From positions 1 through 42,698 of the forward strand of contig JAFTVX010000041.1 in the NCBI GenBank assembly GCA_017465575.1: a DNA stretch of 42,698 nt. Reading direction: 5' to 3'. This document shows, one piece after another, positions 2,792 to 41,324 of this stretch (its first letter is position 1; the number at the start of each line of letters is the position of its first letter). The DNA comes from Alistipes sp. (GTDB lineage: Bacteria; Bacteroidota; Bacteroidia; Bacteroidales; Rikenellaceae). Both the position numbers and the translations under genes were made by a program. The notes under the pieces were generated by a model, which saw nothing but the letters and a program-made list of their open reading frames with translations, was not told the origin of the DNA and made no database searches.

Positions 2792-2873
2792 TCATACTGA
2801 GCGTAGCGAAGTATCTATCGGGTTGTATGGCAGTTGGTGCATATTGGTAGATTCTTCGCTATGCTCTGAATGA
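2792..2873 (+). repeat. MITE-like inverted-repeat element, copy 2
   Basis: Nearly identical to the element at 2151-2232, including the flanking TTTTAACTCAT runs on its left and the perfect GGGTATCTAAATAGATACCC palindrome on its right. This shows that a larger module was duplicated in direct orientation. Confidence 0.7.
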
Positions 2874-3167
2874 TCCACGCGGGTATCTAAATAGATACCC
2901 GTGAGATTGTGGATTGAGTCCGTGTTTAGTGTGTGCGGGTATCTAATTAGTTACCCGTGCGGGTGTTAAAGATCGCACCCCAGCAAAATGGACTGCTTGT
3001 TATGCGGGTGTTAAAAATCGCACCTATATCATAGTTGTGCTAACTTCTCCATGTGTGTTAAAAATGATACCCATATCGCAGATGTGCTGGCACGCTGTGG
3101 GTACTAAAAATGACACCCGCATGGGTATTAATTTTAAGACCTCTACATCAGTTGCCACCTACACGCA

Positions 3168-4324: not shown

Positions 4325-5836
4325 ATGGAGAAAGTGATTACAATTCGCCCAGCGAGGCGAGAGGATGCGCCGATGATTGCCGAGGCGGTGGCGATGGCTG
4401 TGGGCTACGGTGTCGAGCATCCGCTGTATGCCGTATTTTTGGAGTTAGCGGGGCGTGAGGTGGCGCAGTATAGCTACCGAAATAGCCTTGTTGCCGAGGT
4501 CGATGGCGTTGTTGCTGGTGCTATTGTGGGCTACGATGGCGCACGCCTTGAGGAGCTTCGCCGTCCGATATATCCACTTCTTAAGGAGCATCTTGGCGAG
4601 ATTCCCCATATCGAGGATGAGACCGAGGCTGGCGAGTATTACCTCGACTCGCTCGGTGTGTTGCCCGCCTTTCGTGGCTTGGGCGTAGGAGGGGCGTTGC
4701 TCAATGCAGCCTCGGAGCGAGCCTTTGCCGAGGGGCACACACGGGTCGGTCTGATTGTCGATTTCGACAACCCCGATGCCGAGCGCCTATACTCCTCGCT
4801 TGGCTTTCGTCGCGTTGGCGAGAAGCGCTTCTTAGGGCATCGAATGTGGCATTTGCAGAGGGTAAAGAGCCGATACGGCGAGCCCTATTTGGGTGATACA
4901 AAGTATGTTGCGAAGTGTCGATTGTTGCAGTCGCGCTATCGTGCCGATATTCTAAATCTGCCCATTGCGCCCTACAAGGGTGGTGGCAAAAGTTACTTCT
5001 TTGGCAACTACATTGCCGATGGCGAGAGGTCGGGGGCGAACTTTTTGGAGGAGTATATCTTCGCCTATGCCAAGCATCGTGTGGCGCATAAGCGACCCTA
5101 CGAGACAATCCAGTCCGACAGGCTTTTCAACAATCTGTTGTCAAGTCAGCCGATGGCATTTAACCTATTTTGCCCATTGCGAAAGATGCTCTCAGAGGAT
5201 GCCGAGGCGGCGACAAGGTCTCTGCAACGAGCATTGCCCGACTACGATATAGCGTGTGTCGAGGATGTCGATTTGGAGTTTATACCCGCTAACTATGAGC
5301 AACTTACGGGCGACAGAAGCGCTATGGATGCCATTATCCGCTACCGCAATAGCGAGGGCAAGGAGTGCTTTATCGCCATCGAAACCAAGTACTCCGAGAA
5401 CCTCGGCACCAACGAGGCGGGAGAGCGTGGTAGAGCAAGGGCGGTGGAGGTTATCGAGGAGTTGGGTTGCTTCCCCGCAGATATAGTTGAGCAAATCAAG
5501 AGCAACAAGATACGCCTCACGCAGATTTATCGTAACTTCCTTTTAAGCGAGGCGTATGCCCACCATAATGGCTTTATAGCGCACTCGCTGATATTATCGC
5601 CAAAGGAGCTTGGCTCGACAGAGAGGGAGCTTAAGGAGTTAAAGGATAGGCTAACACCCGCTTTCAGCGAGAGACTCGGGTCGCTGTCGTTGGAGAGTTT
5701 TGTAGATTCGCTAATTGCGAATTGCCCCACGGCGTATCGCGCAGTATTTGAGCAATTTAGAGAGCGATACCTCGCCTTTGATAGATTGGATAACCTCGAC
5801 ACGGAGGGTTATTGGCAGAAACAAAATAGCCTATGA
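4325..5836 (+). CDS. GNAT acetyltransferase fused to PGN_0703-like PD-(D/E)XK nuclease domain
   Basis: This 503-aa protein has two parts. Residues 1-180 are a GNAT acetyltransferase: IRPARRED at the start and the acetyl-CoA loop LPAFRGLGVGGALL at 113-126. Residues 185-503 resemble the PGN_0703 family of putative restriction endonucleases (LLSSQPMAFNLF at 271-282). They carry a PD-(D/E)XK-type signature, D335 in SAMDAII followed by the E353-x-K355 motif in FIAIETKYS. The substrates of both domains are unknown. Its stop overlaps the next ATG (ATGA), so the two genes are probably co-transcribed. The gene lies directly downstream of the palindrome field. The fusion is unusual; each domain call is fairly secure, the joint function is not. 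Confidence 0.85.
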   Translation: MEKVITIRPARREDAPMIAEAVAMAVGYGVEHPLYAVFLELAGREVAQYSYRNSLVAEVDGVVAGAIVGYDGARLEELRRPIYPLLKEHLGEIPHIEDETEAGEYYLDSLGVLPAFRGLGVGGALLNAASERAFAEGHTRVGLIVDFDNPDAERLYSSLGFRRVGEKRFLGHRMWHLQRVKSRYGEPYLGDTKYVAKCRLLQSRYRADILNLPIAPYKGGGKSYFFGNYIADGERSGANFLEEYIFAYAKHRVAHKRPYETIQSDRLFNNLLSSQPMAFNLFCPLRKMLSEDAEAATRSLQRALPDYDIACVEDVDLEFIPANYEQLTGDRSAMDAIIRYRNSEGKECFIAIETKYSENLGTNEAGERGRARAVEVIEELGCFPADIVEQIKSNKIRLTQIYRNFLLSEAYAHHNGFIAHSLILSPKELGSTERELKELKDRLTPAFSERLGSLSLESFVDSLIANCPTAYRAVFEQFRERYLAFDRLDNLDTEGYWQKQNSL

Positions 5837-9348: not shown

Positions 9349-10569
9349 TTAAGTATTAGAAGTTTTACCAAGCGTGGCAAGGAACAGCTGCTGTTCGGGG
9401 TCGCTCTCGTCGTACTCTAAGCCATCGGCCTTGCGTGCCTCCCAGATACGCATATACTGTGGTTTTGAACAGGTCGGTGGGCGATTGACAATCTCCAACG
9501 ACGAAGCGTCAATGCCGAAAACAAGCTCGATAACCTTGCGTATAGGCGACAATAGCTGCTCCTGCTCGGGGAGAATCACGGTGTTGAGCGCCACCTCATA
9601 TTCGTGCAAGATGCGCTCCGACGAGAAGCCCGACGAGTAGTCGAGACCACTTAGCGAACGGAACCACGAGTGGGCGATGATAAGGTCGTTCTCGGCCTGA
9701 GTGTGGAGCGTATGCCAATCGCCATCTGTTGCGGTGTTGATAGGTATAAATCGCGAGTTGTCGCCCTCGGCCTTGTCGCGCAATACGAAGAGCACCTGAC
9801 CTGGGTTGCCCGCAAACTTCTCCTCGGCCATACGCACGATGCGGTCGGCCTCCGCTTCGCTATCCACCACGCTGTCGAGCATCATCACGCCCGAGAGCTG
9901 GAAGGCGTTGTCCAAACGCGAGATATTCCACTTATCGGTCTTGTAGGCGATGGCTGCAGCATCGACAGCTGCCAAGTATCCCGCCACGCCATAGTGCTGA
10001 AACATAGGCTCATAGTCCTTGTAGTGGAGTATAGAGCGCAGCGTACCATCGGCCTGCTCCTCGAAAAGTGGGAATAGGGGCAACGACTGCGCATCAGAGG
10101 AGTTAAAAGCCGACCAGTTGTGGTGCAAGACGATATGCTCGGAGTCGCGTGCCACACGACACTTCGAGGCATCGTGGTGGTAGAGCGCGAGGAAGCTATG
10201 CTCCTTATCGGTCACCACCTCCAAGAAGGCGTTGCCGAAGAGTGCCTCATCGAAGGCCAAGCGATGAACGATGTCGCGCAGAGTGTCGCCCGAGGCGTTT
10301 GCCGAGGATATAAGGTGGCTAACCAGAGGCTGATTATCGCCACAAACAAGGCCCTTGCCAGCGATATAGTCGGCCTTGTCGTTGAGTATTCGGCGGTGAG
10401 CCACCGAACGACGCGATATAAGCGAGAGGGCATAGGGCAACATATTGTCGTCGCCCCAGTGCCACACCCTATCCGATGTTGCGGATACTCCCGCCACGGT
10501 CGAGCCCAAGAGGGGCTCGACACGGTTTTCGGGGGCTGCTATGCGTGTAGCAATACGATGTTCTGACAT
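9349..10569 (-). CDS. Phage portal protein
   Basis: This 406-aa protein shows portal features: early WHWGDDNMLPYALSLISRR, IAGKGLV, a clip/wing region, and then NISRLDNAFQLSGVMML, FAGNPGQVLFVL and FRSLSGLDYSSGFSSERIL near the C-terminal half. Portals form the dodecameric DNA channel at one capsid vertex and dock the terminase. Here no terminase gene is present in the cassette. The length is short to normal for an HK97-type portal. It lies between capsid protein and connector genes, 19 bp after the capsid gene. Confidence 0.8.
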   Translation of the reverse strand: MSEHRIATRIAAPENRVEPLLGSTVAGVSATSDRVWHWGDDNMLPYALSLISRRSVAHRRILNDKADYIAGKGLVCGDNQPLVSHLISSANASGDTLRDIVHRLAFDEALFGNAFLEVVTDKEHSFLALYHHDASKCRVARDSEHIVLHHNWSAFNSSDAQSLPLFPLFEEQADGTLRSILHYKDYEPMFQHYGVAGYLAAVDAAAIAYKTDKWNISRLDNAFQLSGVMMLDSVVDSEAEADRIVRMAEEKFAGNPGQVLFVLRDKAEGDNSRFIPINTATDGDWHTLHTQAENDLIIAHSWFRSLSGLDYSSGFSSERILHEYEVALNTVILPEQEQLLSPIRKVIELVFGIDASSLEIVNRPPTCSKPQYMRIWEARKADGLEYDESDPEQQLFLATLGKTSNT

Positions 10570-10588
10570 AGCGCAAAGGGTTTAAAGA

Positions 10589-11551
10589 TTAGTAAAAGTC
10601 GGCACGCACGATGAGCGACTCATCGAGAATCTCACAACCCAAGAGGAACGAGGCACGCTGACGGTTCTCCATCTCGTCGGGGTTGTACCACATACGAATC
10701 TCGGCGCTCGGGTCGTCGGCGGTATTTACCGCAAGTACAAGGTTGCGACGGTCGGTGAGGAAGCAGTGGGTATCGCCCTCAAAGGAGTAGAGAGGCAAGT
10801 ACTGCGTGATGCCCATATCGATGAGGCGGATACCATGATAGTAGAGCTCACGGCGGCCAGTGGTCATATCGGTATAGGCGGCATCGGCACCAAACTTGTC
10901 GAGGTGCGCCTCAAAGGCATCGAGCACATTCGAGGTGCAGAAGAAGGCGAGATTACCCTCGGCCTTGAGCGACTTAAGTGCAGGGGGTGCAGCAGCCCAC
11001 ATCTGCTCAAACATATTGACAACAGTATCGCCATCAATCTGAACGCCAACGAGGTCTACGCCCGTAACCTGGCTGTAACGATATACGCGAGCGAGGAAGC
11101 CGTCCAAGAGGTTGATATCCTCGGCATCGGTATCGCCAATCCACATCATGGTGCGGATGCTCTCGGCAATCGATGCACGGAAGAGCTCGGTCTCGGCCTT
11201 CTCGAGGTCGGTGCCTGTAAGGTCCTCGAGACCAACATCCGAGCGGTTGGTGATAAGCTCATAAATCTGGTTGAAGTAGTCCTCAGCCGAGAAGCCTACC
11301 TCTGCCTTAATCTTGCTCATGTCGATAATCTTCTGCTGACGAATAGCGCTCTCGCCACCTGTCCAACCCGTGGTGTAGGGCTGCAACACATTGCTACGAG
11401 GACTCCACAGAGGCACCACCGTTGGCATAGGCATATTGTAGATTACGCGGATGCCGAGCTGCTCGGCACTCTCGCCCTTGAACATAGGACGGAAGAAGAT
11501 GGTTTCGAGATCACGGGCTGTGTAACGCTTAGGATTTTCAATCATTCCCAT
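10589..11551 (-). CDS. Major capsid protein (HK97-fold-like)
   Basis: This 320-aa protein lacks a signal peptide or membrane segments. It lies between a ClpP-type protease gene and the portal gene, the position expected for a capsid protein. Sequence landmarks include YTTGWTGGESAIRQQKIIDM, EVGFSAEDYFNQIYELI and LAFFCTSNVLDAFEAHL, with a C-terminal region rich in beta strands (MWYNPDEMENRQRASFLLG). It would assemble the icosahedral shell. The call rests on context and general architecture more than on a universal motif. Confidence 0.7.
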   Translation of the reverse strand: MGMIENPKRYTARDLETIFFRPMFKGESAEQLGIRVIYNMPMPTVVPLWSPRSNVLQPYTTGWTGGESAIRQQKIIDMSKIKAEVGFSAEDYFNQIYELITNRSDVGLEDLTGTDLEKAETELFRASIAESIRTMMWIGDTDAEDINLLDGFLARVYRYSQVTGVDLVGVQIDGDTVVNMFEQMWAAAPPALKSLKAEGNLAFFCTSNVLDAFEAHLDKFGADAAYTDMTTGRRELYYHGIRLIDMGITQYLPLYSFEGDTHCFLTDRRNLVLAVNTADDPSAEIRMWYNPDEMENRQRASFLLGCEILDESLIVRADFY

Positions 11552-11618
11552 AGTTGTAAAAATTTAGGTTATTAAACAAAAAAGGTTAGGTTGGATTTGT
11601 TGATTAGTTTGTTGATTT

Positions 11619-12773
11619 TTAGCGATTTCTTAACGAGCGAGCATCACGCTCATATGCCGTCATTCGCTCATCACTGCATCGCTCCACGGGCGAGGGATCC
11701 TCGGTAGCCTTGGTCGTAGTGGGCTTGACACCCTTCTGACCCTCATCGAGGGCGATAAGCGAACTCTCAGCGGCTGCCGAGGGTAGAAGCTCCGAGCGAG
11801 GGATATAGTTGATATCGTCGCCCGCATCGGGCGCTGTGTCGATGCCGATAGCTCGAAGCAGTGCCTGAACACCACGCTTTGCCCTCTCGCCAAGGCCCTC
11901 TTCGGTAGCTGGCTCCTTAGCCGAGGGGATAAGTCTATCGACAAGCCCTTCGGCAATCGCCTCGTCGGGCGAGAGCCAGCGGCCACGGCCACCATTTACC
12001 GACATTAGCGCCTCAATCTCCTCGACCGCACGCCCCGAACGCTCGGCATAGATGGCTGCCAAGCGGCGGTCGGTCTGGCGAAGCATATCAACCTCGGCCT
12101 GCAACTCCTCGGCATTGCCCTCGGTCGAGCATAACGAGTTGTGGATAAGGTAGAGTGACGAGGGTGCTATCTCGCGGCAACCCTCCGAGGCTGCCTGTGC
12201 CACGATGGTGGCTGCCGAGGCGGTGTAGCCATAACAGCGTGTGGTGATGTGGGCACCCGTGGCACGCAGAGCCTCGTAGATAAGCAGAGCATCGTTTACA
12301 TCGCCACCCGTAGAGCGGATATTGACCACGATATGCGCTGAGCTAAGGTCGGCAATCTTGGCCACGCTCTCACGGAAGCGCTCGTAGGTTGCCACACGGC
12401 TCTCGGGGTTGTCGAACTGCCACTCCTCCGAGAGGCCTATTGTGCCCTCTATGTCGATTGTGGCACTCTCGGCCTCGTTCTTGATTTTGATTACTGAGTT
12501 CATTTTAGGTTGTGTTTTAAGAAGTTTTTGTTCGTCGTAGACCGCCTGTCGCACCTTCTCATAGGAGCAGGAGAAGGCCACGGCAGCCTCCGACATCGCC
12601 CTACAACGCCCCACACCCATCACAGCATTTTTCGCAACAAAGCGAGAGATTGCCCTACGCTCGAGGCGAACACTATCGACCATAGAGTGACGAATAAGCA
12701 TTGCAATGAGGCGTTCATATCGACGGTTGCGCGAGCAGGGTTTATTGCTGTATGTTAGGGTGTTAGGTGTCAT
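11619..12773 (-). CDS. ClpP-type phage head maturation protease with N-terminal extension
   Basis: Residues 92-290 of this 384-aa protein are a ClpP/S49-like serine protease: NIRSTGGDVNDALLIYEAL, the nucleophile S186 in GYTASAATIVAQAA, H211 in LYLIHNS, and the typical tail WLSPDEAIAEGLVDRL. Such proteases cleave capsid precursors during head assembly. The first 90 residues are a basic helical extension (RNRRYERLIAMLIRHSM, CSYEKVRQAVYDEQ) unlike usual phage proteases. Translation could also start at M91 (MNSVIKIKNE), but no better start signal was seen there. The C-terminal 90 residues are low-complexity and may be scaffold-like. Confidence 0.75.
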   Translation of the reverse strand: MTPNTLTYSNKPCSRNRRYERLIAMLIRHSMVDSVRLERRAISRFVAKNAVMGVGRCRAMSEAAVAFSCSYEKVRQAVYDEQKLLKTQPKMNSVIKIKNEAESATIDIEGTIGLSEEWQFDNPESRVATYERFRESVAKIADLSSAHIVVNIRSTGGDVNDALLIYEALRATGAHITTRCYGYTASAATIVAQAASEGCREIAPSSLYLIHNSLCSTEGNAEELQAEVDMLRQTDRRLAAIYAERSGRAVEEIEALMSVNGGRGRWLSPDEAIAEGLVDRLIPSAKEPATEEGLGERAKRGVQALLRAIGIDTAPDAGDDINYIPRSELLPSAAAESSLIALDEGQKGVKPTTTKATEDPSPVERCSDERMTAYERDARSLRNR

Positions 12774-12789
12774 AGTGCTGGTTTAAAAA

Positions 12790-15114
12790 TTAGTCGTTAA
12801 GTGTGCGCAAGAAGCGACAGCGTGCCGTCTGGTGCTCGGTGTCGTAAGCCTCAACCGAGAGCAGGCGGAATAGCGAGGAGTGGCCACCCTCCGAGAGACG
12901 GAAGCGAGAGCGAATGGTGGCGCCCGAGGTCGATGGGTCGAAGAGTGCGAGATACTCGTCGGGGTCGATGCGCAAGCTAAGCTCCACCACCTCCCTCTCG
13001 GCCCACTCCCTAAGCTCGGTGTCGTAGTAGCGGTGCAGACCCTCGATGCCATCGCCGTCGCCAAAGGCGAGGCTCTCGCCAAGCTCGGTATTGTGGAAGG
13101 CGGCGTGAGGGTATTCCGAGCGTACCACAGGTGATGCCCACCACTCGCCCCTGGGGAGTGCTACCATGCCGCTATATAGCACCACACGCGGTGTCAGCGC
13201 CTCGTCGTAGAGGCTGTCGCGGTCGCCTGCCGTAAGCACCTCGGCCGAGGGTGCCGACGGGGCAAAATCACGGATAGAAGCGGTGGGGGCAAAGAGAGGA
13301 TTTACGATGGTGTGCTCCGCGTACTTCGCCGCATAGCCCTCGTTGTGGTGGCTCCAACTACCGGGCTCCGAGCCCAGCTGCTCCCTCAGTCGGCTGATGA
13401 CGCCATCGCCCGCCTGATACTTCAAGGTTGTTTGGGTGTAGCTCGCCACAATGCCCTTGTCGAGCGCCACCTCACCCTCTACCTGTCGCTCACGCCAGTC
13501 GACAACCGTGCCTGAGTAGAAGTCATCACGAGGCTCGATAATGAGGCGCTTCGATGGCTCGTGGGAGTAGATGCGCAGGTTGTACATCTGTTGCATAGCT
13601 TTGAGCAGTGTGGCAAGCGAGATATCGTGGTGGGTGATATCCTCCCACTCTACCCTCTCGCCATAGCCCGCCACACCGTCAAAGACGGGCGTTACATAGC
13701 AACTGCTATGTAGCGTAAGCGTCTGACCCTCGGCAGCACCACCAAAGAAGATGTCGCTGAAACGCTTAGGCGAGGTGGGTGTGTAGCGCTCGAACGAGGA
13801 GCGAACATCAATCTCTACGGTGCGACGACCCGTAGGCTGAACATAGCCGTTGTAGAGTGCCCAATCGCCACTATACGGCATAAAGAACGAACTGGAAGAG
13901 GTCTTGTAGTAGAGCGAGACAGCCGAGCCCGCATCCTCCGTAAGGACAATCTTGCTTATAGGCTCTGTGATAGCGCCATAGCCACGGAGCAAGTACTCCT
14001 TCTCGGGGTCGAAATCGAAGATATATAGCGTATACTCCACACCCGGTGTAAAGGAGTTTCGACGGTCGATATAGGGGTTGTTGAGCTTGATTTCTATCTC
14101 GCAACCAGTACCGATATTTAGCCTGTCGAAGCCCTGCAAAAACTTACTCGACGCTATTCGATAGTCGGTCGTGAAGCGCAGGTGGTAGTCAAATGCCACG
14201 CTTATATCGCGCTTGGGGCGGAATACAGGGCGACCCTCTTCGAAGCTAAAACATCCGCCCGAGGTGTAGGCATCACCCACCATGATACCCTCGTCGGTCA
14301 TAGCAGCGGGGTTTACCGTATCGACCACAGCACCAACATTCGATGCCATGGCTGGCTCCCAGACATAGACTCTGCCATCCTCGCCCGCTGTGGCCGTCGT
14401 TGTCTTTGTGCGGTAGGCCTTGAAGCCCATCTTGGCGTAGGCTGTGGTGCTCTCAACCTTGGGCCATGCGCCACTCATCATAAGGCGACGAAAACTCTCC
14501 GAGCGCAGGAAGTCGCTATCGAGGCTATACCCAGCCCTCTCGGCAAGGCTCTCGACAATAGGCAGAACCGAGATAAAGGGGTGGTAGTTGTGGGGCATCA
14601 GCGTGCGTTGCTCCTCGTAGATACTTGTGGCGGTGGGCTCGGGGTAGCTATCACGCCATAGAGGGAGAAAGTGTACGGGGCTATCGTCGCTCCACGACTC
14701 GGCGATACCTGGTAGCGACATTATGGCGCTGAAATCGACCTCCAAGTCGCCGAGCTTCGTGGTTGCCGCCAACTCCGCCCACTCAGCGCCACCGCTACGA
14801 AGACGCACTCGGTAGGTTCGACCACTCGCATCGCTCTCCGAACCGAGCAACACCGCCAACCCCTCGAAGAGTGCCACACCATCAACCTCGAGGCGTGCCG
14901 CATGATACGAGGCATTGAAGTCCTCGGCATGGTAGAGGTCGGCGCCATTCGCGAATAGCTCATCGGTAGTGGGCACCGAGGCCACCATTAGGTCGATATC
15001 GTCGCCCTCGCGCCACGCATCTACATCGCATAGGCGGCGAGCATCGTAGGTGGGTAACTTAGGCTCACAACCCACAATCGGGCATACCACATCGTCGATT
15101 ACAAGGCGCATCAT
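12790..15114 (-). CDS. Large phage tail/baseplate-like protein
   Basis: This 774-aa protein has no signal peptide and is rich in beta structure and aromatic residues. The region around 520-600 (LATLLKAMQQMYNLRIYSH, KRLIIEPRDDFYSGTVVDW) and the C-terminal SLRIDPDEYLALFDPS recall baseplate-hub or distal tail proteins of Bacteroidales prophages, but I cannot name a family. Its start overlaps the upstream stop by 4 bp (ATGA), so it is translationally coupled to the 322-aa protein. It is the largest cassette protein. Alternative: a capsid decoration or host-contact protein. Confidence 0.5.
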   Translation of the reverse strand: MMRLVIDDVVCPIVGCEPKLPTYDARRLCDVDAWREGDDIDLMVASVPTTDELFANGADLYHAEDFNASYHAARLEVDGVALFEGLAVLLGSESDASGRTYRVRLRSGGAEWAELAATTKLGDLEVDFSAIMSLPGIAESWSDDSPVHFLPLWRDSYPEPTATSIYEEQRTLMPHNYHPFISVLPIVESLAERAGYSLDSDFLRSESFRRLMMSGAWPKVESTTAYAKMGFKAYRTKTTTATAGEDGRVYVWEPAMASNVGAVVDTVNPAAMTDEGIMVGDAYTSGGCFSFEEGRPVFRPKRDISVAFDYHLRFTTDYRIASSKFLQGFDRLNIGTGCEIEIKLNNPYIDRRNSFTPGVEYTLYIFDFDPEKEYLLRGYGAITEPISKIVLTEDAGSAVSLYYKTSSSSFFMPYSGDWALYNGYVQPTGRRTVEIDVRSSFERYTPTSPKRFSDIFFGGAAEGQTLTLHSSCYVTPVFDGVAGYGERVEWEDITHHDISLATLLKAMQQMYNLRIYSHEPSKRLIIEPRDDFYSGTVVDWRERQVEGEVALDKGIVASYTQTTLKYQAGDGVISRLREQLGSEPGSWSHHNEGYAAKYAEHTIVNPLFAPTASIRDFAPSAPSAEVLTAGDRDSLYDEALTPRVVLYSGMVALPRGEWWASPVVRSEYPHAAFHNTELGESLAFGDGDGIEGLHRYYDTELREWAEREVVELSLRIDPDEYLALFDPSTSGATIRSRFRLSEGGHSSLFRLLSVEAYDTEHQTARCRFLRTLND

Positions 15115-38823: not shown

Positions 38824-39046
38824 TTACCAAATATACGGAAATAGTCTGTATCTTACCCTCTGTTTATACTCCGTGTAGCCCTTTAATTCTCGCTCAAGCA
38901 ACTTTTCTTCAAGTTGTATACGCCTAACAATCAACGGTATATATAGGAGCATTATGGCTGTTGCAATGGGCGAGCCAAGAATCATTGGCATCGTGGTAGT
39001 AATCTCAATAAAGTCTGGGGGTTGATGTGTAGCCGCTCTACTCTTC
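38824..39046 (-). pseudogene. 3' remnant of an isoprenylcysteine-carboxyl-methyltransferase-like gene
   Basis: A reverse-strand frame ends at 38824-38826. It encodes PMILGSPIATAIMLLYIPL, IVRRIQLEEKLLERELKGY and TEYKQRVRYRLFPYIW, the conserved C-terminus of small membrane methyltransferases of the ICMT/PEMT type. The frame is closed by a TAA just upstream of CAAGAGAAG (about 39047), and the rest of the gene is missing. It is replaced by the 71-aa gene on the same strand. About 70 codons survive. Confidence 0.7.
38828..38835 (-). promoter_or_regulatory. -7 box TATATTTG for the RibD-like gene
   Basis: The reverse strand reads TATATTTG. The predicted transcript start is near 38821, upstream of the preferred ATG at 38812. 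The box overlaps the last codons of the methyltransferase remnant. Confidence 0.55.
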
Positions 39047-39253
39047 TCTTGTTACCTTAAAGTACTTTTTGTCCTTGCTCCAGCCGAGGGAGAATTTGGC
39101 GACATTTCGTTCCTCTAAACGCTTACGGGCATTGTGGAATCCGTTGTAGTCGGTGGCGATAGGCTCAAAGTATTTAGTCTCGCCCAAGTCGAACTCTCGC
39201 AAAGTGGCTACATAACTCTTAACCATCTTTACCTGTGATACTTTTATCTCCAT
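39038..39253 (-). CDS. 71-aa basic protein encoded at the edge of the repeat array
   Basis: The sequence begins MEIKVSQVKMVKSYVATLRE, continues with DYNGFHNARKRLEERN (a likely basic helix), and ends in a beta hairpin (VAKFSLGWSKDKKYFKVTRE). The pattern beta-helix-beta-beta with a basic helix is compatible with a small winged-helix or other DNA-binding protein (inference). I recognise no named family. Its ATG lies 2 bp from the first copy of the 34-bp repeat, and its -7 box is inside that copy. This makes it the best candidate for a repeat-binding, autoregulating protein. Confidence 0.65.
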   Translation of the reverse strand: MEIKVSQVKMVKSYVATLREFDLGETKYFEPIATDYNGFHNARKRLEERNVAKFSLGWSKDKKYFKVTREE

Positions 39254-39254
39254 A

Positions 39255-40429
39255 TTGAATTATCCTTGATAATACAAAGATAACTCAAAAGTAGTAGAAA
39301 ACCAAGATTTATTCTCATAAAATCAGCGCGATAACTGAAATTTGTTGCTCTCCTCATTTTATTGAGAGGGCGGACTGATAAGAAAAATCGAGTGGCCAAT
39401 GAAAACTACTTGAATTATCATTGATAATACGCGGATAACCCAAAGTTCTTAGACAATATATTTTCTACATATGGGATGTCGGTTAAAGTAACTCTTTCGA
39501 ATTATCATTGATAATACGGGGATAACTCAAAAGAGTATAGAGGAGAGGTTTCCTTATAGAGAAAAAATGGGGGGGGTACTAATAATAAAATATCCTCAAT
39601 AGTGCACCGATAACTCAAAAGAGGTTGAAGCCAAGATTTTTACATATAAATGTTGAGGTGAAGGATTAAAAAGCTAATGCCCCCACCCTTCGCAGAATAA
39701 GATTAGCAAACCTCGTATAATCAGATTCGCTCCACTCTTGAGTTATCCTTGATAATACGGGGATAACTCAAAAGAGGTTGAAGCCAAGACATATCAATGT
39801 AAAATAGAGAAGAAAAACTAAACTAATTCGAGCAGTTTTAAAGTCCACTTGAATTATCATTGATAATACACGGATAACTCAAAGGTAGTTAAAAACAAGC
39901 CTTACTTTTGTGAAATAGATGGGAAAACAAAACTAATTTTGCTACCATTATAGTCAACTTAAATTATCGATGTTAATACATGGATAACTCAAAGTGTATA
40001 GAGAACGCTGTTTCTATATAATGAAGGATTGGTTATAGCATCACCTTGAATTATCCACAATAATACACAGATAACGCAATGGTTGTAGTGAGCGCAGTTT
40101 TCTGCAAAGAGAGTAGACTATTTTACTCCTATTGAATTATCCTTGATAATACAATGATAACTCAAAGAGTTTAGTGAGAATAGTTTTCTACCCATAGAGG
40201 CTTGGTTGTAGCACCACTTTGAATTATCTTTGATAACGCACAGATAACTCAATGGCGAATAAAAACCAAGGTTCTCTTTGCATCAAAAGGAGTTTGATAT
40301 TCTCCTTTTGAATTATCCTTGATAATACACAGATAACTCAAAGATAGGGAAAAGTCATGGTTCTCTTTGCATCGAAAGGAGTTGATATTCTCTTTTTGAA
40401 TTATCCTCGATAATACACGGATAACTCAA
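39255..40429. repeat. Array of twelve 34-bp interrupted palindromes with 52-121-bp spacers
   Basis: Copies start at 39255, 39410, 39497, 39585 (decayed), 39738, 39849, 39959, 40046, 40132, 40219, 40308 and 40396; each is exactly 34 bp. The consensus has a left arm TTGAATTATC, a central GATAA, and a right arm GATAACTCAA. Copy 5 (39738-39771) is a perfect palindrome with 11-bp arms TTGAGTTATCC/GGATAACTCAA. Start-to-start distances fall in three classes: 86-89 bp (seven), 110-111 (two) and 153-155 (two). Spacers show weak similarity (many begin near TAGTAGAAAACCAAG) and two are near-identical, so this is a diverged tandem repeat whose core is selectively kept. No cas genes are nearby. Confidence 0.9.
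39275..39306 (-). promoter_or_regulatory. Promoter CTTG-N20-TATCTTTG inside repeat copy 1
   Basis: The reverse strand reads TATCTTTG (39275-39282) within the first repeat copy, with CTTG 20 bp upstream (39303-39306). It drives the 71-aa gene with a leader of about 15 nt. In the other copies the same position reads TATCTGTG, TATCCGTG, TATCATTG or TATCCCCG, so only copy 1 has an intact -7 box. Confidence 0.65.
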
Positions 40430-40574: not shown

Positions 40575-41324
40575 CTACCAATTTCCTAAATAGTGGTCAC
40601 CTTGATTAAGTTTAATATATGTGTTGAGATATTGCGAATCCTTCACCTCGTAGCCCTCAAACATACATCTCTTGCCCTTGAAGAGTGAGGCATCTGTTAT
40701 CTCTTCCCACTTTGTGGGCTTAAATACAGCACGCACAACGCCTTTATATACCGCCAATACATAGTCGGCATTTTGTGCTTTATGGATATTTAGTTTCCAG
40801 TATTTGCGCGCCTTTTCATACATACTATCTCTACGGTATATCCTCTCATTACGAGTACCCTTGTAAGTATTACTCAAATTAACGACAATCAACTTGTCGC
40901 GAGTATCTATTTTCAACGGCTTACAATCGTATAGTTGGTTTATCTCTTCAGCCGATTTGATGCCCTCATCCCACTGATGATGTCCCGCCTGGATGTTTGC
41001 TAATATTGACTGCGTGTTAAACTTATTGTATGTAAGCAAATCTATCAAAGTCGACTCTACTATATATGCTTGCTCCTCACTTAGTTTGTGGCGTAGGATA
41101 TAATACTCCACCCTCAATCCTTCAGCCAAAATCTCACGAATAATGGCACTTTTCAATGAATCGTCGCTATAACAAATTGCATTTTCGGCGTGCTGAAAAA
41201 CACGATTACCACACCCCTTGCCAATGTAGAAGATCTTTCGATTACGAGGATCTACCAAACAATATACATAATAATGAATCTGCTCTATGACAGACTGGCT
41301 GAACATGGTGTTAATATTGGACAT
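40575..41324 (-). CDS. GIY-YIG (LEM-3-like) nuclease domain protein
   Basis: Residues 15-100 of this 249-aa protein are a GIY-YIG nuclease of the LEM-3-like type. The two motifs are YVY (19-21) and YIG (33-35 in IFYIGKGCGNRVFQH), with R41, H45 and E90 (EEQAYIVESTLID) as probable active-site residues. Residues 105-249 form an unassigned domain (LIVVNLSNTYKGTRNERIYR, KARKYWKLNIHKAQNADYVL) seen with this nuclease type, possibly for target recognition. Single-domain nucleases of this group cut DNA; the substrate here is unknown. It is transcribed toward the 34-bp array but ends in a terminator before it. Confidence 0.85.
   Translation of the reverse strand: MSNINTMFSQSVIEQIHYYVYCLVDPRNRKIFYIGKGCGNRVFQHAENAICYSDDSLKSAIIREILAEGLRVEYYILRHKLSEEQAYIVESTLIDLLTYNKFNTQSILANIQAGHHQWDEGIKSAEEINQLYDCKPLKIDTRDKLIVVNLSNTYKGTRNERIYRRDSMYEKARKYWKLNIHKAQNADYVLAVYKGVVRAVFKPTKWEEITDASLFKGKRCMFEGYEVKDSQYLNTYIKLNQGDHYLGNW

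Follow-up and report, generated by a model that had tools for sequence, protein, structure and literature searches.

We identified, in a contig of Alistipes sp., a gene for a 71-residue protein that lies immediately beside an array of twelve 34-bp repeats. The best explanation, to which we give about three chances in four on sequence evidence, is that the protein is a sequence-specific, cooperative, autoregulating DNA-binding protein of phage ancestry and that the array consists of its amplified, promoter-dead operators. The window, by which we mean the whole stretch of DNA analysed (42,698 bp), lies on contig 11 of the 47 contigs (1.95 Mb) of its source genome, designated G000. The features under discussion are as follows.

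39038..39253, minus strand: gene for the 71-aa protein (P0001), proposed DNA-binding protein recognising the array; from homologues and dN/dS
39255..39288, minus strand: unit 1, proposed promoter-proximal operator; boxes at 39257-39264, 39268-39275 and 39279-39286
39275..39282, minus strand: -7 promoter element TATCTTTG (TAnnTTTG), inside unit 1; perfect sequence match
39303..39305, minus strand: the TTG belonging to the -33 promoter element, with 20 nt between it and the -7 element
39410..39443, minus strand: unit 2; consensus match and box-triad scan
39497..39530, minus strand: unit 3; consensus match and box-triad scan
39585..39618, minus strand: unit 4, the most degenerate; 7 mismatches, under the box-triad threshold
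39738..39771, minus strand: unit 5; consensus match and box-triad scan
39849..39882, minus strand: unit 6; consensus match and box-triad scan
39959..39992, minus strand: unit 7; consensus match and box-triad scan
40046..40079, minus strand: unit 8; 4 mismatches, box-triad scan
40132..40165, minus strand: unit 9; consensus match and box-triad scan
40219..40252, minus strand: unit 10; consensus match and box-triad scan
40308..40341, minus strand: unit 11; consensus match and box-triad scan
40396..40429, minus strand: unit 12, at the far end of the array; consensus match and box-triad scan
40575..41324, minus strand: GIY-YIG nuclease, LEM-3-like (LEM-3_GIY-YIG family), PADLOC label PD-T4-3; neighbour

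The array and its three-box unit

The array extends from 39255 to 40429 and is built of twelve ungapped units, ten of which match the consensus TTGAATTATCNTTGATAATACNNNGATAACTCAA with no more than three mismatches. The spacers between units measure, in order, 121, 53, 54, 119, 77, 76, 53, 52, 53, 55 and 54 bp. These coordinates bear out the sequence-only reading, which had described twelve exact 34-bp units with 52-121 bp between them; its statement that the arms are kept in every copy held only in part, as the units at 39410, 39497, 39585, 39738, 39959 and 40046 are each at least one letter off. It had also taken the core to be better conserved than the spacers, and mean pairwise column identity across the twelve units is indeed 0.84 in the core, compared with 0.33 over 40 bp 5' of the units, 0.44 over the first 10 bp and 0.40 over the next 30 bp on the 3' side, and an expectation of 0.28 from composition. 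One hundred dinucleotide shuffles of the window gave no match to the consensus at this threshold of three mismatches; the array is real, and far beyond chance. The rest of the source genome has no match at up to three mismatches, exact repeat matches in named records came from one Rikenellaceae MAG and one Alistipes MAG, and a literature search for a comparable array found none.

Read in the sense of the 71-aa gene, a unit is GAGTTATC nnn GTATTATC nnn GATAATTC, that is, three 8-bp quasi-palindromic boxes with a consensus of about GATAWATC, separated by two free 3-bp gaps in an 8-3-8-3-8 layout with an 11-bp period. Over units that we chose (17 of 23 from three genomes for type A, omitting the degenerate unit at 39585, four G130 units and, from G184, the duplicate proximal unit; 9 of 14 matches for type B; 5 of 7 matches for type C; the types are described below), column information in boxes versus gaps was 1.85/1.71/1.89 versus 0.54/1.03 bits for type A, 1.87/1.87/0.78 versus 0.62/0.77 bits for type B, in which box 3 is weak, and 1.67/1.79/1.40 versus 1.22/0.66 bits for type C. 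A box-matrix scan, with a matrix trained on period-11 units of the same layout that it then detects, returned 17 triads at period 11 on contig C12 of genome G130 versus no more than one at any period from 8 to 10 or from 12 to 15, and in the window 12 triads at period 11 (11 units and one overlapping triad) versus 0-1 at other periods.

More independent than the matrix scan is an offset test on 17 sites of the three-box pattern outside the training set, reduced to 13 when close homologues are removed. One period upstream, at offset -11, the mean box score was -0.5 versus a median of -8.5 elsewhere, and five of the 17 sites scored above 4, two of these five boxes being the promoter box already known beforehand; the 13-site set gave a mean of 0.5, with four sites above 4. 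One period downstream, at offset +33, four of 17 scored above 4, as did four of 17 at the out-of-phase offset -39, and the mean of -3.75 was equalled at two or so other offsets.

Promoter overlap and proposed mechanism

A single base pair separates unit 1 from the ATG of the 71-aa gene. By the Bacteroidota promoter consensus given in PMC7366714, this unit overlaps a canonical promoter, predicted for the 71-aa gene and directed away from the array. The three-box make-up, the adjacency of unit 1 to the start codon and the promoter overlap were all missed by the sequence-only reading. The arrangement TTG-N20-TATCTTTG is found upstream of 10 of the 11 stand-alone family members, the exception being the copy in G179, where no TTG-N18-22-TAnnTTTG occurs within the 250 bp searched; shuffling the 250 bp of the window copy produces the latter pattern in 2.4% of cases. 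Among the twelve window units, only the promoter-proximal one keeps TAnnTTTG, which is absent from all 11 distal units, while a TTG 19-20 nt upstream of the corresponding spot persists in five of those 11. The TTG remnants suggest that the units were made by duplication of the promoter-operator stretch.

We propose that protomers or dimers, three to a unit, line the same face of the helix. Unit 1 covers the -7 element and the DNA between it and the start codon, and occupancy there would block RNA polymerase and produce autorepression. The other eleven units would be copies of the duplicated promoter-operator stretch that lost promoter function and were retained as binding sites only. They most likely add binding capacity and local concentration, by way of titration, a sharper switch and possibly looping or a compact nucleoprotein body; the role of the extra operators is the least certain step of the explanation. 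The system poses the question of why a single-gene autoregulator would retain as many as twelve operators, eleven of them without the promoter element. That a protein binds the repeats had been offered as one possibility from the sequence, and it is well supported by the boxes at helical-turn spacing, the promoter overlap, the gene-linked box variants and the occurrence of exact sites only in genomes that hold the gene, the last two of which are documented below.

The 71-residue protein and its relatives

Across 180 genomes of the genus, searches by protein sequence and by profile turned up 11 stand-alone copies, which fall in 8 genomes. Two more distant homologues both lie in prophage-like regions. 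One, in G106, is divergent from an adjacent S24-type repressor gene, and genes of SSB and Rad52 type are close by; the other, in G231, adjoins an ORF read by eye as helix-turn-helix-like. Values of dN/dS in five pairs were 0.125, 0.074, 0.044, 0.091 and 0.087, and the 71-aa gene is under purifying selection. An order-wide profile search of 393 genomes from 207 genera matched only the window's genome.

The protein has no PADLOC match and no Pfam or NCBIfam family above cut-off, a match to the CymA family (E 0.023) falling under the cut-off of that family. PHROGs returned nothing at E <= 1 for the 71-aa protein, a best E of 0.17 for six family members, and nothing for the prophage-type relative. 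In phage and plasmid records the 71-aa protein matched nothing at E <= 1, and in phage records the prophage-type relative matched nothing at E <= 10; five stretches of viral contigs fit a peptide pattern, none of them encoding a relative. A profile search of the PDB gave three matches with E 0.76 or worse, that is, chance matches. The AlphaFold model (H-E-H-E-E, mean pLDDT 57.5) had no PDB match at E <= 0.001, its best weak matches being to proteins other than winged-helix proteins. At the kbl/yifB locus of seven relatives, no kbl was found in the 2-3 kb beyond yifB, so that no clean empty site was available for comparison.

Array types and linkage of sites to the gene

The 8-3-8 spacing is common to the sites of all types, while box sequences differ. 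Type A arrays occur in G000 (12 units), G184 (4 units) and G130 (7 units, about 154 bp apart). Type B arrays accompany a paralogue of the 71-aa gene in the window's genome, which has its own array with different boxes, and a paralogue in G130; they show nine and five matches to GTTATAACNNNGTTATATC at up to three mismatches on the gene strand, at least two of the matches being shifted by one box, and neighbours are mostly 83-85 bp apart. The type C array of G179 has seven matches at up to eight mismatches, about 78 bp or double that distance apart, against a shuffle mean of 0.3. Type D comprises single proximal sites, in G152, G108/G144 and G127, and five of the 11 copies (G152, G108, G144 and two in G127) have no array. 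Points that weigh against the preferred reading are these array-less copies, the promoter exception in G179, the weak box 3 of type B and the results at offsets +33 and -39. A suggestion made from the sequence, that arrays might lie beside the 71-aa gene, proved right for type A in G000, G184 and G130 and for types B and C at the paralogues. At L032, about 5060-5360, an unrelated stretch, perhaps a mobile-element remnant, breaks a type B array.

The exact three-box pattern TATCNNNSWWTWATCNNNGATAAT is present in all eight genomes with a stand-alone gene and in none of the 172 others; since the pattern, like the box matrix, was composed after the positive genomes had been seen, only its absence from the other 172 is independent. 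With one mismatch allowed, eight further genomes have a single match each, among them G231, which has the prophage-type homologue only, and a reversed control pattern matches in six genomes. Pattern matches on contigs C44 and C33 and a coding match in G132 were judged chance or unrelated. A site in G234 (L110), a genome with no 71-aa gene detected, resembles that of G127 C26 at one mismatch from the pattern and is perhaps a relic.

The family provides a natural example, of a kind we did not find described, in which a tiny presumed DNA-binding protein has paralogues whose boxes changed and whose one-turn spacing was kept. With two box versions in one genome, a protein-DNA recognition code should be readable by swapping boxes.

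Neighbouring genes

The GIY-YIG gene next to the array matches the PADLOC PD-T4-3 model (PDLC04031, E 8.9e-44, residues 6-214 of 249). Neisseria has a link between a GIY-YIG ssDNA nuclease and repeats; no paper on a link of that type was among the literature matches listed. The sequence-only reading had tied the array to this nuclease, a tie that genome counts contradict: a GIY-YIG homologue (E <= 1e-5) occurs in 12 of 180 genomes of the genus, nine of which have no 71-aa homologue, and a full-length GIY-YIG gene stands beside the stand-alone 71-aa gene in two of eight genomes, a third having the C-terminal part only. On these counts the nuclease is an optional neighbour, and its role as constant partner of the array was rejected. 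A box-triad scan of the window found nothing upstream of the GIY-YIG gene.

The defence genes at several loci raise an alternative, which we regard as unlikely: that the 71-aa protein times the expression of nuclease or restriction-modification (RM) cargo in the manner of a C protein, the array tuning the switch. In G152 the 71-aa ORF overlaps the start of an ORF encoding a type IIG RM enzyme, and a Fic/BRO protein is encoded next; in G108 and the near-identical G144, two box sites flank a three-gene type II RM system; and the neighbour in the window is itself of PD-T4-3 type. C proteins form a highly cooperative, concentration-dependent switch, according to PMC3115060. However, no such cargo was seen by eye in the ORF lists of the paralogue B, G179 and G127 copies, and the GIY-YIG gene of the window lacks an upstream box triad. 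The RM genes thus make a controller role plausible at G152 and G108/G144, and the window is left unexplained by that role.

Several neighbouring features were recorded along the way. The 71-aa/type IIG locus of G152 (L035 6239-8834) lies about 4.4 kb from an ORF read as ParB. Positions 9349-15114 of the window, on the minus strand, encode a portal-like protein (PF04860, E 2.1e-9, just under the cut-off), a Clp-type protease and large unassigned ORFs, and look like a phage morphogenesis module or a prophage remnant. On the plus strand at 4325-5836, a fusion joins a GNAT acetyltransferase domain with a nuclease domain of the PD-(D/E)XK / REase-ARP kind, and a cobalamin riboswitch (98.8 bits) is found at 1727-1925 on the minus strand.

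Sites away from the gene

Box sites also occur far from any 71-aa gene, several of them between convergent genes. Of eight gaps with both flanks visible, four are convergent by ORF calls, three more are convergent on our own reading, the ORF calls there being muddled by antisense ORFs that overlap, and one is divergent. Four further places have one flank past the end of the contig or stretch, and the one in G184 apparently repeats a gap that was included above for G000 and G130. Located between a 202-aa gene and an EamA-like gene, this gap holds sites in both G000 and G130 with differing box sequences, which points to turnover of boxes under a constant layout. A promoter operator makes little sense between convergent genes, and these sites count against the autoregulation reading. 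In G130 all pattern matches fall on one contig, where the arrays and two orphan sites span about 37 kb; the scan of C12 adds a weak triad at 82249, and GC skew along that contig showed no interpretable boundary.

Such sites are what might be expected of a centromere-like or structural system, in which a nucleoprotein complex nucleated at the arrays would anchor or organise part of the chromosome, in a layout like ParR/parC or StbA/stbDRs. The small proposed autoregulator with its upstream repeat array, the sites in convergent gaps and the confinement of G130 matches to one contig all fit. Yet no NTPase partner was present among the 29 window proteins searched, nor was one noticed in the ORF lists of the other copies. 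The stand-alone gene is found in just eight of 180 genomes, at chromosomal positions that vary between genomes; G127 has sites spread over at least five contigs, and G152 has one clear site. We consider this account doubtful, more so than the control of RM cargo.

A wider reading of the family, speculative and in our judgment improbable as a whole, can be put beside the preferred one. Phage-derived, filament-forming DNA-binding proteins of a new family may have turned into a stand-alone system of the chromosome in this genus of Rikenellaceae, each copy co-evolving with its own boxes, seeding promoter-dead operator arrays and sites between convergent genes, and building a sequence-addressed nucleoprotein domain around stretches in which several genomes have defence genes. 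If true, such a domain would be an alternative to ParB or to nucleoid-associated proteins.

Two further observations concern orphan sites. In L051, about 2870-3090 (G000 C24, about 35.9-36.1 kb), a GTGTGTAGTGAGGCG-like minisatellite lies between two orphan sites, downstream of an EamA-like gene; with no 71-aa gene to go with it, one of these sites shows a near-promoter layout and is possibly the relic of a lost copy. In L037 (3980-8013) and L039 (2736-6600), alike distal and alike proximal sites surround cargo that differs, with a type II RM system in G108 and a leucine-rich-repeat protein in G127, as if the genes between the two sites had been exchanged.

Less likely readings: attachment sites, hairpins, neutral repeats

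The array might instead be the arm region of the attachment site of a lost integrative element, its boxes bound by an excisionase. Helical-turn spacing and the prophage-like relatives speak for this, as do Apl, which works both at att sites and at promoters (PMC7498355), and the P2 record, which annotates Cox sites beside attP. Set against them are the absence of any integrase in a Pfam search of 29 window proteins and the twelve widely spaced units, unlike a compact att arm, and we think this explanation very unlikely.

An array of structured RNAs or single-stranded DNA hairpins is more improbable again. TTATC and GATAA can pair in each window unit, and structured RNA had been suggested on seeing the sequence, but box orientation, judged by eye, varies between sites (inverted, direct or self-palindromic) and spacing is what is kept; Rfam is negative in the array at gathering scores, and the predicted promoter of unit 1 faces away from it. 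RNA-family and tRNA readings gave nothing in the array. Equally slight is the chance of a neutral minisatellite of functionless tandem copies, for which copy number (12 in the window, 4 in G184, 7 in G130), the look of the G130 units as near-identical 154-bp repeats and the 11 of 55 window spacer pairs that still align at z > 3 might be cited, but in which neither the core conservation over the flanks nor the retention of boxes in 11 of 11 distal units that lost the -7 element would be expected. A CRISPR array was rejected, with spacers of 52-121 bp, a variable repeat and a search of 29 window proteins that gave no cas family, in agreement with the initial impression that no cas genes or integrase are nearby.

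Comparison with known systems

The preferred reading, a cooperative autoregulator with amplified operators, has its closest parallels in Apl of phage 186, P2 Cox and lambda Xis, with which the 71-aa protein would share small size, tandem sites one turn apart and promoter overlap (PMC7498355). The same paper describes proteins of the Apl/Cox type as products of the first gene of the early lytic operon, highly cooperative in binding repeats spaced by one turn, and RdfS is reported to bind its own promoter as an oligomeric winged-helix protein (PMC11963761). The prophage-like relatives of our family likewise adjoin a repressor gene or, in G231, an ORF that reads like one. In contrast, the gene here is stand-alone and chromosomal, with no integrase turning up in the search of 29 window proteins, and the sites are quasi-palindromic 8-mers in an array of twelve separated three-box units. 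The RDF-type trait of tandem sites one DNA turn apart is present, in boxes that lack a simple direct-repeat form. Comparison by hhalign gave kinship probabilities of 0.8% for lambda Xis and 0.2% for P2 Cox, a weak test with single sequences on the RDF side; as no kinship was found and the fold model is of low confidence, both of which weigh against the preferred reading, the 71-aa protein is not filed as an RDF member.

C proteins of RM systems resemble it as small autoregulators, in our case a proposed one, with cooperative operators, and the overlap of the G152 ORF with the following RM gene adds to the likeness. C-protein operators consist of two to three sites, whereas the array here is large, and the 71-aa protein has no C-protein or HTH match in PADLOC, Pfam or NCBIfam. 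RM genes adjoin the G152 and G108/G144 copies, not the window copy, the other loci being judged from ORF lists.

In the plasmid stability systems ParR/parC (PMC9426499) and StbA/stbDRs (PMC3098194), a small DNA-binding protein likewise goes with repeats close to the gene that encodes it, and StbA is a further functional analogue. They differ from the present case, in which the contigs are chromosomal, occurrence is patchy and no motor protein was seen. The met boxes of MetJ are tandem, palindromic, 8 bp long and cooperatively bound; tandem 8-bp boxes are thus common to both systems, but met boxes abut with an 8-bp period, whereas the boxes described here recur every 11 bp.
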